DNA of 5,459 nt. It comes from Robiginitomaculum sp. Lineage in GTDB: Bacteria > Pseudomonadota > Alphaproteobacteria > Caulobacterales > Maricaulaceae. Of the stretch, positions 1 to 5,459 are shown one piece after another. The DNA is taken from positions 40,288 to 45,746 of the forward strand of contig NVRS01000012.1 in assembly GCA_002732685.1 (NCBI GenBank), written 5' to 3'. Numbering within the stretch: the first letter of the stretch is position 1; each line of letters opens with the position of its first letter. The notes under the pieces were generated by a model, which saw only the letters and a program-made list of their open reading frames with translations, had not been told where the DNA came from and ran no database searches. A program made the translations under genes and the position numbers.

Positions 1-1761
1 CCGCAAGGAACTTTGTTTGGCCGCAATACTACGGCGGGTATTATTAAGTTGTCTTCAGTAAAACCTTCGCAAGAAACAGATATGCGGTTTTCCACGAGCT
101 ACGGTACTTATGGCTCTATGAATACGCAGGTTGCTGTTGGTGGCGCACTTTCAGATACTTTATCTGGTCGTGTTTCCGGCGCACTTATTCGTCGTTCGGA
201 TTATGTAGATAATACATTCACTAATGAAAAAGATGCTCTGGGCGGTTTTGAAGATTTGGCTGGTCGTGTGCAATTGCTCTGGACGCCTACAGAAGCTTTA
301 GACGTATTACTTGATGTTCATGCTCGTGATGAAGAAGGCACTGCAACATTGTTCCGTGCTAATATCCTGACCACTGGCTCAAATGATGTGAATAGCAATT
401 TCGTTAAAGACGAAGTCGCATTTGACGGCGGCGCTGGTAACCCGCAAGAAATTAACTCTAAAGGTATCACACTTAATGTGTCTTATGACTTAGGTGCAGC
501 AACGCTTACATCTATCACCGCATTTGAGGAGGCTACGGGCCTTTCACGCGGCGATATCGATGGTGGTTTTGGTGCTGCATTCTTGCCATTTATGGGTCCT
601 GGTTTCATCCCGTTCCCGTCTGATACAGGCAATGAATATTTCACTAACCAGTATACCCAAGAACTTCGCTTAGCCAGTAATGGCGACGAAGCACTTAAAT
701 GGCAAATTGGTGGTTTTCTATTCCGCTCAAAAATGAAGGCTTTAACCGATCCGGGCTTTGTCCCGCCGTCAATAATAGTTGATCATAAAAAAGCTTGGGC
801 GATTTTTGGCCAAGGGTCTTATGATTTTAACGATACAACAACGCTTACGGGTGGGGTTCGCTATACTAAAGACAAAGCAGATTTGTCTGTGTTTAATCAA
901 CCTGGCGCGCCTGTTCCTGAGACTTTGATAGATGCGGGCGAAATTAGCTGGGATGTAAGCCTGAACCATGAGTTGAATGAAAATGTCAATGTATATGGTC
1001 GTGTTGCTCGCGGTTTCCGTGGCCCGTCTATCCAAGGTCGTGATGTTGCGTTCTTTGGCGGTGTAACAACTGCAGATTCTGAAACAATTCAGTCCTATGA
1101 GCTTGGATTTAAATCCATGCTGGCTGACAACAGACTGCGTTTTAATGCAGCGGCATTTTACTATACTGTAAAAAATCAGCAGTTTACCGCTGTTGGTGGT
1201 ACAGGGAACAATGTTGGTCTGATCAATTCTGATAAAGGCGTTGGTTATGGGTTTGAAGCTGATGCAACTTGGGCCGTTAATGATTTCCTTAATCTAACCG
1301 CTGGCTTTGCGCTTAACGAAACGGAAATTAAGGACAATACTCTCAGCGTTGCTGTTTGTGGTTCTGGGCTATGTACTGTGACTGACCCGCTGAATGTAAA
1401 TGGACGTGCTCTGGTTGATGGAAACCCATTCCCGAATGCGCCGAAAATTACGGCTAACTTTATTGTCGACTACAAAGCGCCTATCAGTGACAGCATGAAT
1501 TTAGTGGCTTCCCTTGATGGTTCAATTCAGGGGCATACCAACCTGTTCTTGTATGAATCGCTTGAGTATTTCACATCTGGTAACTTTGAACTTGGCGGCA
1601 AGCTTGGTTTGACTTTTGAAGATGACAAATACGAACTTTCCGTATTTGCCCGTAACTTAACCGACGAAGTTAACATTGCAGGCGGTATCGACTTTAACAA
1701 CAACACTGCGTTTGTTACAGAACCGCGTATTGTTGGTGTTATGTTTAGTGCCAGAAACTAA
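1..1761 (+). CDS. TonB-dependent outer-membrane receptor, 5'-truncated (plug end plus beta-barrel)
   Basis: This is an outer-membrane gated channel that imports a scarce ligand using TonB/ExbBD energy. The frame is open from base 1. The first visible residues, PQGTLFGRNTTAGII, are the conserved end of the plug domain, so signal peptide, TonB box and most of the plug lie left of the window. The 586 visible residues then alternate short amphipathic strands with Gly/Asn/Asp-rich turns and loops, as in a 22-strand barrel. Recognisable barrel motifs include 'YTQELRLAS' (about 216-224), 'GGVRYTKDKADLSV', 'NVYGRVARGFRGPS', 'SYELGFKS' and, near the end, 'LSVFARNLTDEVN'. Two cysteines five residues apart (visible residues 453 and 458, bases 1357-1374) sit in a probable surface loop and may form a disulfide. 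The protein ends ...MFSARN, without the usual terminal Phe/Trp. A terminator follows at once, so it is probably last in its transcript. The substrate is unknown; the family covers siderophores, cobalamin, sugars and other solutes. A purine-related ligand is only a guess from the neighbours. The TTG at base 13 is not the start. Confidence 0.95.
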   Translation, partial: PQGTLFGRNTTAGIIKLSSVKPSQETDMRFSTSYGTYGSMNTQVAVGGALSDTLSGRVSGALIRRSDYVDNTFTNEKDALGGFEDLAGRVQLLWTPTEALDVLLDVHARDEEGTATLFRANILTTGSNDVNSNFVKDEVAFDGGAGNPQEINSKGITLNVSYDLGAATLTSITAFEEATGLSRGDIDGGFGAAFLPFMGPGFIPFPSDTGNEYFTNQYTQELRLASNGDEALKWQIGGFLFRSKMKALTDPGFVPPSIIVDHKKAWAIFGQGSYDFNDTTTLTGGVRYTKDKADLSVFNQPGAPVPETLIDAGEISWDVSLNHELNENVNVYGRVARGFRGPSIQGRDVAFFGGVTTADSETIQSYELGFKSMLADNRLRFNAAAFYYTVKNQQFTAVGGTGNNVGLINSDKGVGYGFEADATWAVNDFLNLTAGFALNETEIKDNTLSVAVCGSGLCTVTDPLNVNGRALVDGNPFPNAPKITANFIVDYKAPISDSMNLVASLDGSIQGHTNLFLYESLEYFTSGNFELGGKLGLTFEDDKYELSVFARNLTDEVNIAGGIDFNNNTAFVTEPRIVGVMFSARN

Positions 1762-1784: not shown

Positions 1785-1813
1785 AAGCCCCGCAGTTTTC
1801 TGCGGGGCTTTTT
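1785..1813 (+). terminator. Rho-independent terminator after the TonB receptor
   Basis: A perfect 11-bp GC-rich stem (1785-1795 paired with 1800-1810, arms AAGCCCCGCAG and CTGCGGGGCTT) encloses a TTTT loop. The 3' arm runs into a T tract (TTTTT at 1809-1813, then C and TTT). It begins 23 bases after the receptor stop codon and separates the receptor from the downstream unit. Lacking an equally good T tract on the other strand, it most likely acts on plus-strand transcripts. Confidence 0.93.
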
Positions 1814-1815
1814 CT

Positions 1816-1843
1816 TTGACCCAAGAACAAACAGGCGTAGTAT
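1816..1843 (+). promoter_or_regulatory. Candidate sigma70-type promoter for the dioxygenase-guaD unit, probably giving a leaderless mRNA
   Basis: TTGACC at 1816-1821 matches the -35 consensus at five of six positions. TAGTAT at 1838-1843 matches the -10 consensus at four of six, with a 16-base spacer. Transcription would then begin around 1849-1851, on or beside the ATG at 1850, leaving essentially no 5' leader. No Shine-Dalgarno sequence is visible before this ATG, which agrees with a leaderless message, a form known to be translated in many alphaproteobacteria. An alternative -10 is TATCTA at 1841-1846 with a 19-base spacer, which is less good. A short dyad, GTAG-TAT-CTAC (1837-1847), overlaps the -10 and could be an operator or chance. 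This is read by eye only. Confidence 0.4.
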
Positions 1844-1849
1844 CTACTT

Positions 1850-2701
1850 ATGTTAACTACTGAACAGAAATGTGAATTCAAAGATAATGGCTTTATCGTT
1901 TTGCCAGATTTTAAATCTTGTGCAGAGATAACTGCACTTAAATCTCGTGCCAACGAAATAGCAGCATCACATGATTTTGATGCCAACAAAGAAGTGTTTT
2001 CCACAGACCGCCAGCGCGGGCCACAAGCTGACAGGGTGCAGGATTATTTTTTGGGGTCAGCCAACGAAATTCGTTGCTTTTTTGAAGAAAAGGCGTTTGG
2101 GGCAGATGGAAACTTGGTACAGCCGCTCGAGCAATCTATCAACAAGATCGGCCATGCTATGCATGATCTTGCCCCTGCGTTTCACAAGTTTTCCCACGGC
2201 GACAAACTGGCGGAATTGGCTGCGGACGTTGGCTTGAGCCAGACACAAATTTGGCAGTCCATGTATATTTTCAAACAGCCCCGTATTGGCGGTGAAGTTG
2301 GCTGGCATCAAGACACCGGATTTTTCTACACGACACCGCAATCCGTCACCACGTTCTGGTTCGCGGTGGATGATGCGACCCTTGAAAACGGCTGTATTTG
2401 GGTAGAACCGGGGGGGCATAAATCCCCATTGCGTCAACAGTTTACGCGTGATGGCCGTCAAACTAAATTGATAGATTTAGACACCACGCCGTGGCCGAAT
2501 ACCAAAAGCGCCGTACCCGTAGAGGTTAAAGCTGGGACCTTGGTTTGTTTTAACGGCATGTTGCCCCATTATAGTGCTCCCAATACTTCCGATCATGCCC
2601 GCCATGCTTATACTCTACATGTGACGGATGGTGCTTGTCGTTATGCGCCAGAAAACTGGATACAAAGAAGTAATACCCTTCCTGTACGCGGGTTTGTATA
2701 A
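1850..2701 (+). CDS. PhyH-family Fe(II)/2-oxoglutarate dioxygenase, PHYHD1-like
   Basis: This 283-residue protein has the double-stranded beta-helix fold of the phytanoyl-CoA dioxygenase family, which couples 2-oxoglutarate decarboxylation to substrate oxidation. The iron triad is intact: H153 and D155 in 'GWHQDTGFFYT' and the distal H240 in 'GMLPHYSAPN'. R251 ('DHARHAYTLHV') is the expected 2-oxoglutarate carboxylate ligand. Several blocks closely resemble, from memory, animal PHYHD1: 'DYFLGSANEIRCFFEE' (65-80), 'SINKIGHAMHDL' (96-107), 'QSMYIFKQPRIGGEV' (136-150), 'DDATLENGCIWVEPGGH' (174-190) and 'PENWIQRSNTLP' (267-278). Length is also close to PHYHD1 (about 290). The ATG at 1850 is chosen because an in-frame TAG lies at 1838-1840 and the N-terminus 'FKDNGFIVLPDF' begins where the family does. 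No signal peptide is seen, so it should be cytosolic. The TAA overlaps the guaD ATG by one base. The substrate is unknown; coupling to guanine deaminase and proximity to urate oxidase suggest a purine. Phytanoyl-CoA itself is unlikely. Confidence 0.93.
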   Translation: MLTTEQKCEFKDNGFIVLPDFKSCAEITALKSRANEIAASHDFDANKEVFSTDRQRGPQADRVQDYFLGSANEIRCFFEEKAFGADGNLVQPLEQSINKIGHAMHDLAPAFHKFSHGDKLAELAADVGLSQTQIWQSMYIFKQPRIGGEVGWHQDTGFFYTTPQSVTTFWFAVDDATLENGCIWVEPGGHKSPLRQQFTRDGRQTKLIDLDTTPWPNTKSAVPVEVKAGTLVCFNGMLPHYSAPNTSDHARHAYTLHVTDGACRYAPENWIQRSNTLPVRGFV

Positions 2702-3999
2702 TGACGCAAAAAGCTTACAGGTCACAAATTTTCCATCTACTGGGTGACCCGTATGTGGACGTAGAAGCCTATGAATATTTCAAAGATGGTTTGTTAATAA
2801 TCGAAGATGGTCATGTCAAAGCCGTTGGGCCGTACCGGACATTAGCCAAGACCTTACGCTCGTCTACGAAAATCCAGCACTATAAAAACCACCTTATCAT
2901 GCCGGGGTTTATCGACACCCATATCCATTTCCCGCAAGTTGATATTATCGGCTCCTATGGTCGGCAATTGCTGGACTGGCTCCAAGATTATACTTTCCCG
3001 GCGGAGATGGCTTTCAAAGACCCGAAAGTCTGCGCCGAGACTGCAAAGTTTTTTGTGCGTGAACTCCTGCGCAACGGCACGACGAGTGCGTTGGTGTTTG
3101 GCACGGTTCATGAGGGTTCCGCAGATGCGTTATTCCTAGAAGCGCAAAAGAAAAACATGCGTCTGATAGCGGGCAAAGTTTTGATGGATAGGGGAGCACC
3201 CAAGGGCTTGCTCGACGGCAAAGACTTAGGCCGGGCTGCGACTAAGCGGCTCATTAAAAAATGGCACGGTACGGATAGGCTTGGTTATGCCATCACCCCG
3301 CGTTTTGCACCGACCTCGACCTCGAAGCAATTGGCTATGGCTGGCGTGCTTAAGGCCGAAAACCCCACAGTCCATGTCCACACCCATATGTGTGAGAACA
3401 AGGACGAGATAAAATATGTGGGCGAGCTGTTCCCGGATTCTACGGATTATCTGGACGTTTACGCAAAGCACGGCTTGGTCGGAGATAAGACCGTATTGGC
3501 CCACGGCGTTCATCTCAGCACGTCTATGTGCAAACGTATTTCTACGTCCGGTGCAGCCATTTCCCTGTGCCCGACGTCCAATATGTTTATCGGCTCCGGC
3601 TTGTTCAACTTATCGCAACTACGCCGTCACAAGATCCGCCATGCGCTGGGCACAGACATTGGCGGTGGCACCAGTTTTTCTTTGCTGGCCACCATGAATG
3701 CTGCTTACTCCGTGTGTCAGCTGCGTGATTTATCGCTGTCGAGCATGGACGCATTTTACATGGCGACATTGGGCGGGGCCAAGGTGCTCGGTATGGACAA
3801 ATATGTCGGTAATTTCGAGCCGGGTAAAGAAGCCGATTTCGTGGTCATGGACCTCAAATCAACACCGCTCATCGCGCGCAGACTAAAAACCGCCAAACGC
3901 ATGAAAGCCATGTTGTTTGCCATCATGATTATGGGCGATGACCGCATGATCGCCGAGACGTTTGTCATGGGGCGATCGGTGTATAAGAAGAAAACCTAA
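2701..3999 (+). CDS. guaD: Guanine deaminase (guanine aminohydrolase)
   Basis: It hydrolyses guanine to xanthine and ammonia in the cytosol, the entry of guanine into purine catabolism. The 432 residues form a complete amidohydrolase-superfamily protein, similar in length to E. coli GuaD and human GDA. The metal and catalytic set is intact: H74 and H76 in 'MPGFIDTHIHFPQ', H229 with catalytic E232 in 'VHTHMCENKDE', H268 in 'LAHGVHLS', and D319 in 'LGTDIGGGTSFSLL'. R201 in 'ITPRFAPTST' and the 'GRQLLDWLQDYTFPAE' block (87-102) are specific to guanine deaminases within the superfamily. The C-terminal 'GNFEPGKEADFVVMD' closes the composite beta domain. It starts at an ATG sharing its A with the preceding TAA (TAATG); there is no strong Shine-Dalgarno, so translation is probably by coupling or reinitiation from the dioxygenase gene. 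The DUF1643 gene begins four bases after its stop. The family assignment is secure; kinetic preference for guanine over other pterin or purine substrates is inferred from the motifs. Confidence 0.97.
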   Translation: MTQKAYRSQIFHLLGDPYVDVEAYEYFKDGLLIIEDGHVKAVGPYRTLAKTLRSSTKIQHYKNHLIMPGFIDTHIHFPQVDIIGSYGRQLLDWLQDYTFPAEMAFKDPKVCAETAKFFVRELLRNGTTSALVFGTVHEGSADALFLEAQKKNMRLIAGKVLMDRGAPKGLLDGKDLGRAATKRLIKKWHGTDRLGYAITPRFAPTSTSKQLAMAGVLKAENPTVHVHTHMCENKDEIKYVGELFPDSTDYLDVYAKHGLVGDKTVLAHGVHLSTSMCKRISTSGAAISLCPTSNMFIGSGLFNLSQLRRHKIRHALGTDIGGGTSFSLLATMNAAYSVCQLRDLSLSSMDAFYMATLGGAKVLGMDKYVGNFEPGKEADFVVMDLKSTPLIARRLKTAKRMKAMLFAIMIMGDDRMIAETFVMGRSVYKKKT

Positions 4000-4003
4000 T
4001 ATT

Positions 4004-4513
4004 ATGAGCGACCTCTTCAAGCAAAACGAAACCCGTACCGCTGTGTTTTCTGATTGCCGGACATGGCGCTATCGGTTGGCGCAAATTTGGGACGAGAGTA
4101 AAGACCCGCTCTATTGGCTCATGCTCAACCCGAGCACGGCCGACGAAGTGCAAAACGACCCGACGGTCGAGCGCTGCGAACGGCGAGCACGCATGTGGGG
4201 TTACGGCGGCTCCGTTGTGCTCAATATCTTTGCATACCGTGCCACAGACCCCAAAGACATGCGCGCCACCCCTGATCCTAACGGCCCTGAAAATGATAAA
4301 TGGATAAGAGAACTAGCGGCCATGAGCCAGCAAGTCACCGTCATTGGCGGTTGGGGCGAGCACGGTAAACACATGGATAGAGGCCAAGCTATTCGCGATA
4401 TTTTCAAATCAGAAAATGGTCGCCTACAAGCCCTAAAAATAAATGCCTCAGGCCACCCCGCCCATCCGCTCTATATAGCTTACGAAAAAACCCCGTTCGC
4501 TATTGAACTTTAG
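4004..4513 (+). CDS. DUF1643 family protein of unknown function
   Basis: This 169-residue soluble protein belongs to the DUF1643 family, whose biochemical role I do not know. Family hallmarks are visible in order: 'AVFSDCRTWRYRL' (13-25), 'LNPSTADEVQNDPTVERC' (41-58), 'LNIFAYRATDP' (73-83), 'GGWGEHG' (115-121) and the C-terminal 'GHPAHPLYIAY' (150-160). It appears full length. The start is placed at ATG 4004, four bases after the guaD stop, because the N-terminus then matches the family. A TTG at 3962 in the same frame would overlap the end of guaD by 38 bases without benefit. The AAGAAG at 3985-3990 is a weak ribosome site and rather distant, so coupling to guaD translation is likely. It is the last gene of the dioxygenase-guaD unit and converges on puuD. 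Whether it serves purine metabolism or merely travels with the operon cannot be told. The conserved polar Asn, Asp and His residues suggest an enzyme or a nucleotide- or nucleic-acid-binding role, which is a guess. Confidence 0.88.
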   Translation: MSDLFKQNETRTAVFSDCRTWRYRLAQIWDESKDPLYWLMLNPSTADEVQNDPTVERCERRARMWGYGGSVVLNIFAYRATDPKDMRATPDPNGPENDKWIRELAAMSQQVTVIGGWGEHGKHMDRGQAIRDIFKSENGRLQALKINASGHPAHPLYIAYEKTPFAIEL

Positions 4514-4615: not shown

Positions 4616-4629
4616 GGGAGTTTACTCCC
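4616..4629. other. Short perfect hairpin spanning the puuD stop codon
   Basis: GGGAGT-TT-ACTCCC is a 6-bp perfect dyad whose loop and right arm contain the puuD TAA (4622-4624 on the minus strand). The two-base loop is too tight for all six pairs in RNA, so the effective stem would be five pairs or fewer. It lies just beside the large inverted repeat and may be part of the same 3'-end structure. It could equally be chance. Confidence 0.35.
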
Positions 4630-5459
4630 CCTCAATCCATACCCGTAGCATTTCGCGTTCCTTATCCGTCATGCCTGTCTCGTTGCCGAGCGGCATGTCT
4701 TTGCCTGTGACTGCGCGTTCCATGATGAGGGTTTTGTTTTGTTCTATCAGCGCATCCGTGTCCAAACGGAATCCTGACGGTGGTTCGTCAAAGCTTTCGT
4801 GGGTTGGATTTGGGGCATGGCAAGCGGTACAGTGGGTATCCATGATTTGGCGTACGTTCTCAAAATTGACTTCGCCCACCGTTGGTGCAGCTGGTTTTTT
4901 AAGGGCGAGCGGGAAGGTCATGGCGGCGACCATGAAGATGACTGCGGCGATTGCGAACGGCATTTTGGGTTTAGTGGTGTGGCGCAGATTGAAATAATGG
5001 CGCACAGCTATGCCGGCCAAGGAGATAAGCGCGAGGCTGAGCCAGCCCATACCCGAGCCGTAGGTCATAGGATAATGTGCACTGGTCATAATGAACAGCA
5101 CGGGCAAGGTCATGTAGTTATTGTGCATAGAACGCAGCTTGGCGGCTTTGCCAAATTCCGGATTAACCGGACGCCCTGCAATAAGATCAGCCACCACGAT
5201 TTTCTGGTTCGGGATGATATTGAAAAACACATTGCCCGCCATCATCGTACCGATCATGGCGCCGACCTGAATATAAGCTGCGCGGTCAGAGAACATCATG
5301 CCTGCTGCAACCGCCGACAATGCCAGCAAAATAAACAACAATATGGCAAACAGGCCGGGACGTTTTCGCAATGGTGATTTGCACATCAAATCGTACAAAA
5401 TCCAACCACCCGCGAGCATACCCATACTGGCACCAATAGCCTGCCAATTCGTCAAAGCC
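4622..5459 (-). CDS. puuD: PuuD: membrane urate oxidase with C-terminal cytochrome c domain, 5'-truncated
   Basis: PuuD oxidises urate to 5-hydroxyisourate at the membrane and passes electrons to its own cytochrome c domain and the respiratory chain, so unlike soluble uricase it need not make hydrogen peroxide. The frame is open through the right edge (first full codon GCT, 5458-5456), leaving 278 residues of a protein usually near 400. The missing part is the N-terminal membrane region. Visible hydrophobic helices are near residues 6-22, 36-55, 64-82, 115-128, 138-152 and 167-185, with the signature 'RSMHNNYMTLPVLF' and 'SAHYPMTYGSG' (about 109-136) of the urate oxidase N-terminal domain. 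After a Pro-rich linker comes a class I cytochrome c fold: CTACH haem motif at 210-214 and the probable axial Met255 in 'DMPLGNETGMTDKER'. The C-terminus 'MLRVWIEGE' is typical. It converges on the DUF1643 gene. Its promoter lies outside the window. The TTG at 5455 is internal, not a start. Confidence 0.94.
   Translation of the reverse strand, partial: ALTNWQAIGASMGMLAGGWILYDLMCKSPLRKRPGLFAILLFILLALSAVAAGMMFSDRAAYIQVGAMIGTMMAGNVFFNIIPNQKIVVADLIAGRPVNPEFGKAAKLRSMHNNYMTLPVLFIMTSAHYPMTYGSGMGWLSLALISLAGIAVRHYFNLRHTTKPKMPFAIAAVIFMVAAMTFPLALKKPAAPTVGEVNFENVRQIMDTHCTACHAPNPTHESFDEPPSGFRLDTDALIEQNKTLIMERAVTGKDMPLGNETGMTDKEREMLRVWIEGE

Follow-up and report, generated by a model that had tools for sequence, protein, structure and literature searches.

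A predicted PHYHD1-type 2'-O-methylnucleoside demethylase encoded beside guanine deaminase in Robiginitomaculum

Described PHYHD1-type enzymes and the oxygenase of the window

2'-O-methylation is among the commonest marks of RNA, and we describe here a bacterial gene whose product may act on free nucleosides that carry it. The gene encodes a PHYHD1-like Fe(II)/2-oxoglutarate oxygenase and directly precedes a guanine deaminase gene (guaD) in a stretch of 5,459 nucleotides from Robiginitomaculum sp. (contig NVRS01000012.1, positions 40,288 to 45,746), which in its full length is called the window and from whose first letter positions are counted. The closest described enzymes are those of a paper of December 2025 (PMC12709175), which reports demethylation of free 2'-O-methylnucleosides by PHYHD1 and by relatives from bacteria, and claims priority in naming a demethylase for such compounds. 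Among them is FJS, a metagenomic bacterial enzyme with GenBank accession PV755200, isolated via a pyrimidine auxotroph growing on 2'-O-methylcytidine; activity is also described for PHYHD1 of human, mouse, fish, fly and fungus, for plant and giant-virus relatives and for those of three additional bacteria (PMC12709175). The 2'-O-methyl derivatives of A, G, I, C and U are tabulated as substrates of both FJS and human PHYHD1, the human enzyme being faster with purine nucleosides, and formaldehyde was demonstrated as the by-product of FJS (PMC12709175). According to the same source, nucleotides and the methylated RNA tried are non-substrates, the substrate table shows N6- and N4-methyl groups retained, human PHYH is inactive on 2'-O-methylnucleosides and FJS hydroxylates phytanoyl-CoA only in traces, while docking sets the ribose against K102, H105, Q139 and W277 of human PHYHD1 (PMC12709175). 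A preliminary description of the window, made from its letters, had held that no substrate was assigned to the PHYHD1-like proteins of bacteria, a statement now overtaken by these reports.

The window oxygenase (1850..2701, + strand) is a full-length protein of 283 amino acids, for which a Pfam search returned PhyH only (PF05721, 160 bits) and no TauD match, and its family comprises at least 7,998 proteins at E ≤0.001. The preliminary description had read the gene as an intact dioxygenase of the HxD...H plus Arg type related to PHYHD1, and both statements hold. Indeed, the best solved relative by sequence is human PHYHD1 (E 1.8e-62), and a search with the predicted fold (predicted local distance difference test, pLDDT, of 87) places two PHYHD1 structures in the lead (PDB 2opw and 3obz; E 3.5e-32, template modelling (TM) score 0.90, 40–41% identity), with human PHYH behind them (2a1x; TM 0.64, 19% identity), so that the protein is nearer to PHYHD1 than to PHYH in sequence as well as in fold. 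The predicted iron ligands H153, D155 and H240, together with R251 for 2-oxoglutarate, are conserved in 116 of 116 relatives. Also, K99, H102, Q136 and W270 align to the four docked residues of human PHYHD1 and are, by analogy, ribose contacts, and F158 corresponds to the base-stacking Phe161. The set of eight residues made up of the catalytic and ribose-contact positions is complete in 114 of the 116 relatives, the exceptions being the homologues of locus L111 (H102A) and locus L145 (W270G), in which a change of substrate is possible. L111 is without a nucleoside neighbour, and L145 has only a weak guaD-like one on the opposite strand. Model confidence is low for residues 51–70 (mean pLDDT 52 and 57), where the human protein has an extra helix, Q56–L71, close to the cavity mouth. 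A pattern scan of viral contigs found no relative.

Gene neighbourhoods of the oxygenase

The guaD gene (2701..3999, + strand; TIGR02967, 569 bits against a cut-off of 375; PF01979) follows the oxygenase gene so closely that the stop codon of the one and the start codon of the other share a base (TAATG, at 2701), as the preliminary description had stated. The record nearest to the window is a Robiginitomaculum metagenome-assembled genome (locus L001), with 96% protein identity in the oxygenase and 92.6% DNA identity over the first 4 kb. It belongs to the eleven loci of the window clade (group A; L001–L010 and L073), in seven of which guaD is the next gene after the oxygenase (L001–L006 and L010; in L002 the contig breaks off within guaD). 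Five of the seven pairs overlap, through TAATG in L001–L004 and ATGA in L005. Rarity of the pair among relatives had been named beforehand as a result that would speak against a purine-directed oxygenase, and the pair is instead kept in most of the clade; it is not due to chance. In the other four loci the next same-strand gene encodes a nucleoside hydrolase (L007, L008), a purine-nucleoside phosphorylase (PNP; L009) or a thymidine kinase (L073), and thus a purine or nucleoside gene stands next in 10/11 loci by gene count, and in 11/11 with L002 included. GuaD exceeds its cut-off in 7 of the 11 clade genomes, which are exactly those with the pair.

A wider survey covered an even draw of 385 genomes from the class to which the genome of L001 belongs, and a homologue of the oxygenase (E ≤1e-40) was present in 38, of which 36 loci were read at length, the omitted ones being G001 (the same as L001) and G362 (a contig-end fragment). 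Genes were called with a codon-usage caller, which gave no oxygenase call at L012 and L040 in the first neighbourhood table; a longest-open-reading-frame caller gave none in 33 of 80 loci. When the adjacent genes were tallied by Pfam family, before any reference set had been chosen and with L088 (the same place as L117) put on the wrong side, the 29 downstream genes included seven for adenosine deaminase, two for a PnrA-like nucleoside-binding protein and one for a nucleoside hydrolase; the 27 upstream genes included nine of the phosphopentomutase superfamily and two each for PnrA-like protein, pyrimidine-nucleoside phosphorylase and AMP-nucleosidase. Most often the genes run ABC transporter, cdd, PNP, (deoC), deoA, deoB and oxygenase, with add and a HAD phosphatase gene in part of the loci.

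The association was then counted with eleven nucleoside-gene reference proteins within three genes of the oxygenase, the control stretches being taken from 20 of the same genomes. A nucleoside-salvage gene lies within this distance in 22/36 alphaproteobacterial loci against 4/232 control positions (Fisher p 5e-19), a test that is not blind, since the reference set was picked after the neighbourhoods had been seen, and whose p-value is only a guide because the four control positions overlap around one gene. Gene by gene, the count is 59/211 near the oxygenase against 1/352 in the controls (Fisher p 9e-27). Two of the 22 positives are of lesser quality, L145 showing 25% identity on the opposite strand and L138 a divergent bmp gene, which leaves 20 same-strand and adjacent cases (L117 included, once its reading frame had been corrected). 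The oxygenase gene adjoins deoA, deoB or add in 15/36 loci, and in L137 it shares 4 bases with deoA and another 4 with add. In the class of the genome of L016 a homologue occurs in 2/369 genomes, one being that of L016 itself and the other (L169) having deoA adjacent, with a nucleoside hydrolase gene and cdd within about 7 kb. On the tree of the oxygenases, the presence of a nucleoside neighbour requires at least eight changes.

Proposed function and its alternatives

These results suggest that the window oxygenase is likely to be a PHYHD1-type 2'-O-methylnucleoside demethylase, working within a locus for nucleoside and purine breakdown, a reading which extends by analogy the activities described for PHYHD1 and FJS. 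RNA that is taken up or turned over would yield free nucleosides, some of them 2'-O-methylated (Gm, Am, Im and others), and these are probably poor substrates for salvage enzymes. With Fe(II), O2 and 2-oxoglutarate the oxygenase would hydroxylate the methyl group, so that formaldehyde is released and an ordinary nucleoside is left; the base would next be freed by a phosphorylase or hydrolase, and guanine would pass to xanthine through GuaD, to urate through xanthine dehydrogenase (XDH) and on to oxidation by PuuD. The likely target is the 2'-O-methyl of the ribose and not a methyl group carried by guanine itself, because N6- and N4-methyl groups are left in place in the table of PMC12709175. 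The preliminary description had offered, as one of two options, demethylation of a modified guanine just before GuaD: demethylation upstream of the deaminase comes close to what is proposed here, whereas the position of the methyl group on the base does not. We infer that purine nucleosides are the main substrates.

A number of observations weigh against this reading, in addition to the two limits of the neighbourhood test given above and to the lesser standing of L145 and L138. The purine-contact residue S154 of PHYHD1 is G151 in the window protein, in a column that varies among relatives, and because of this variation it is the neighbouring genes that argue for a purine preference. The step from guanosine to guanine is not secured in every genome with the pair: PNP exceeds its cut-off in only three of the seven (G002, G003 and G006), G010 has a partial one below the cut-off, and nucleoside hydrolase was found in 0/7 of these genomes, whose completeness is not stated. 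Fourteen of the 36 survey loci are without a nucleoside neighbour (L112 and L113, for instance). Also, such a neighbour occurs in 0/69 loci of a third group, mainly Burkholderiales, with L027 titled Rhodospirillales, and thymidine phosphorylase is encoded elsewhere in 11/12 genomes of this group that were tested; the tree, in which 18 of the 69 loci were taken in (17 and L027), joins the window clade with the Burkholderiales proteins at a support of 100 and apart from the deo-linked homologues. In the third group, either relocation of the gene or a shift of substrate would account for this.

Some observations on these loci stand on their own. In the third group the commonest neighbours are a divergent gene of a LysR cluster (41 loci) and a downstream gene of a TIM-barrel cluster (42 loci); the TIM-barrel gene of L016 (L016:10840-11661, AP_endonuc_2) overlaps the oxygenase gene by one base, its cluster recurs in 41 further loci, and a search of solved structures gave no match for its product. 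In L112 (L112:8076-10024) and L113, of a different lineage, the oxygenase gene stands after a chorismate synthase gene, with a 4-base overlap in L112.

The other option of the preliminary description was that the oxygenase itself converts xanthine to urate. Fungal XanA is a TauD-like xanthine hydroxylase, and an independent counterpart acting on xanthine or hypoxanthine in place of XDH would suit a gene that sits between those for xanthine production (GuaD) and urate use (PuuD), all the more as no XdhB match was found in two of the seven pair genomes (G004 and G006). In close relatives, however, xdh genes adjoin puuD. L001 has xdhC (TIGR02964) and xdhB (TIGR02965) directly past puuD, followed by an xdhA-cluster gene; L003 shows the same gene clusters in the same order, and in L010 puuD is followed by an xdhB-cluster gene and xdhA (TIGR02963). 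XdhB exceeds its cut-off in five of the 11 clade genomes, all five being among the seven with the oxygenase–guaD pair, and thus the survey proposed at the outset, for genomes with the pair and without xdh, shows that substitution for XDH is not needed in most of them. Moreover, the four relatives without GuaD over the cut-off have a nucleoside hydrolase, phosphorylase or thymidine kinase gene next, and the Pfam family is PhyH and not TauD. We have rejected xanthine hydroxylation as the main explanation on account of the xdh genes next to puuD and of XdhB in most pair genomes, and consider it very improbable; we infer from the genomes of the relatives that the window genome has xdh genes of its own.

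A nucleoside oxygenase with a different target, be it the nucleobase, an O-alkyl group other than methyl or some other position on the ribose, would fit the nucleoside neighbourhood equally well. The residue beside the ribose-binding Gln is W135 in 10/11 clade loci against Leu in 24/36 of the deo-linked set, and in the tree a separate long branch carries the clade together with the Burkholderiales proteins, which lends this alternative some substance. Yet the window protein keeps each of the four residues docked against ribose, and FJS and human PHYHD1 act on the 2'-O-methyl whatever the base and spare base methyls in the reactions tabulated in PMC12709175, so we regard a different target as improbable. 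A somewhat larger, still small, chance is given to the same reaction serving as housekeeping, that is, clearance of harmful 2'-O-methylnucleosides with a guaD location of minor metabolic weight, which is compatible with the proposed activity. According to a suggestion in PMC12709175, a build-up of 2'-O-methylnucleosides may interfere with polymerases and with salvage, and the gene lies outside nucleoside clusters in the 69 mainly Burkholderiales loci and in the 14 survey loci mentioned above. Where the neighbours are nucleoside-related, though, they include bmp, ABC transporter, cdd, deoA, deoB and add genes, and this presence of uptake and degradation functions favours a nutritional role over housekeeping; the retention of the guaD overlap in five of seven loci also speaks against it. 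Finally, the PhyH family assignment and the sugar-isomerase-like TIM barrel found as partner in many Burkholderiales loci might point to a hydroxylase of acyl-CoA or of another small molecule, resembling PHYH and unconnected with nucleosides. The distance to human PHYH by fold, when compared with that to PHYHD1, the trace activity of FJS on phytanoyl-CoA (PMC12709175) and the purine- or nucleoside-related gene next to the oxygenase throughout the clade (11/11 with the contig-cut L002) make this scarcely probable.

Demethylation of 2'-O-methylnucleosides by the window enzyme accordingly stays the preferred reading. Whether ribose demethylation is, beyond this locus, a regular and overlooked step of bacterial nucleoside catabolism, located in deo-like operons of many Alphaproteobacteria, with the guaD pairing of Robiginitomaculum-like bacteria forming a dedicated line from the 2'-O-methylguanosine of degraded RNA to urate and further, as a nitrogen source, is a proposition to which we assign even chances.

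Further features of the locus and comparison with known systems

Upstream of the oxygenase the window begins inside a gene for a TonB-dependent receptor (1..1761, + strand; PF00593, 123 bits), of which the 3' part is present and which is probably a separate transcription unit. A receptor relative lies directly 5' of the oxygenase in 7/11 clade loci (gene cluster 33: L001–L005, L007 and L008), L010 and L073 carrying too little upstream DNA for a call. Between the two genes we found a hairpin resembling an intrinsic terminator (1785..1810, + strand; an 11-pair stem and a T run), which by itself is no evidence, as the scan gave 4 sites against 3.6 in shuffled sequences; the hairpin recurs, as judged by eye, in 7/8 relatives inspected (exception L006). 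It is followed by a promoter-like TTGACC-16-TAGTAT (1816..1843, + strand; 9/12 match), one of 4 such sites in the window against 4.2 in shuffles, i.e. no excess. TTGACC is kept in 7/8 relatives inspected by eye, and 6/8 (L001–L006) have a -10-like hexamer similar to that of the window. Since the hairpin and TTGACC recur in most relatives, the oxygenase and guaD genes probably share a transcript of their own; the promoter-like site ends 6 bases 5' of the oxygenase ATG, and the start of this transcript is perhaps nearly leaderless.

Downstream of guaD lies a gene for a DUF1643 protein (4004..4513, + strand; PF07799, 150 bits), which the preliminary description did not mention, and then, on the - strand, the puuD gene that it did report just beyond guaD (4622..5458; PF06181, Urate_ox_N, 219 bits). 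The 5' end of puuD is beyond the window, and the translation of this membrane urate oxidase holds the cytochrome c motif CxxCH, as CTACH. The DUF1643 gene cluster (38) is present in six loci, following either guaD or a ribokinase-like gene, and includes genes near the oxygenase in L007 (L007:14871-15371) and L008 (L008:13851-14354), where guaD is not adjacent. A glycosylase-like fold was considered for the DUF1643 protein and dropped, the model (pLDDT 90) finding in the PDB at best a match of E 3e-4 and TM 0.31. L007 and L008 also have a second 2-oxoglutarate oxygenase gene (L007:12855-13793 and L008:11822-12781), flanked by the nucleoside hydrolase gene and by one for a ribokinase-like PfkB protein. 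In L007 its product is of the DIOX_N type, thymine dioxygenase being one of the weaker matches, and in L008 it was assigned by cluster; it possibly carries out another step of nucleoside or base oxidation. In several relatives genes for an MtnA-like isomerase and a cupin lie 5' of the oxygenase (L006:7327-8788), and these perhaps serve sugar-phosphate salvage.

Most likely, the window protein is a further predicted member of a kind of enzyme already described in 2025 (PMC12709175). The passages of that paper matched by context words give no genomic setting for the FJS gene, and in the open-licence literature we found no report of such an oxygenase in bacterial nucleoside-salvage operons or coupled to guaD. 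FJS came from activity screening (PMC12709175), and the gene neighbourhoods provide an independent line of evidence for 2'-O-methylnucleosides as the substrate class. They also name gene pairs and organisms in which these compounds can be tested as nutrients.

In comparison with known systems, the locus resembles the deo-type operons of Alphaproteobacteria (cdd, PNP, deoA, deoB and add) in that homologues of the oxygenase adjoin deoA, deoB or add in the survey, but the partner in the window is guaD and the window clade stands apart from the deo-linked homologues in the tree. With XanA the window enzyme shares the Fe(II)/2-oxoglutarate oxygenase chemistry and a proposed link to purines, whereas XanA is TauD-like and the window protein has no TauD match, XDH being in addition encoded in most relatives with the pair. 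FJS is likewise bacterial, belongs to the PhyH Pfam family and carries out the reaction that is here proposed; its cavity-side helices are C-terminal, unlike those of PHYHD1 (PMC12709175), and the window protein was compared with it by this description only. Human PHYHD1 is matched in whole-length fold (TM 0.90, 40–41% identity), in the ligands of iron and 2-oxoglutarate, in the K/H/Q/W ribose contacts and in the stacking Phe, and it differs in having Ser154 where the window protein has Gly151, the latter being a bacterial enzyme of predicted activity whose gene adjoins guaD.

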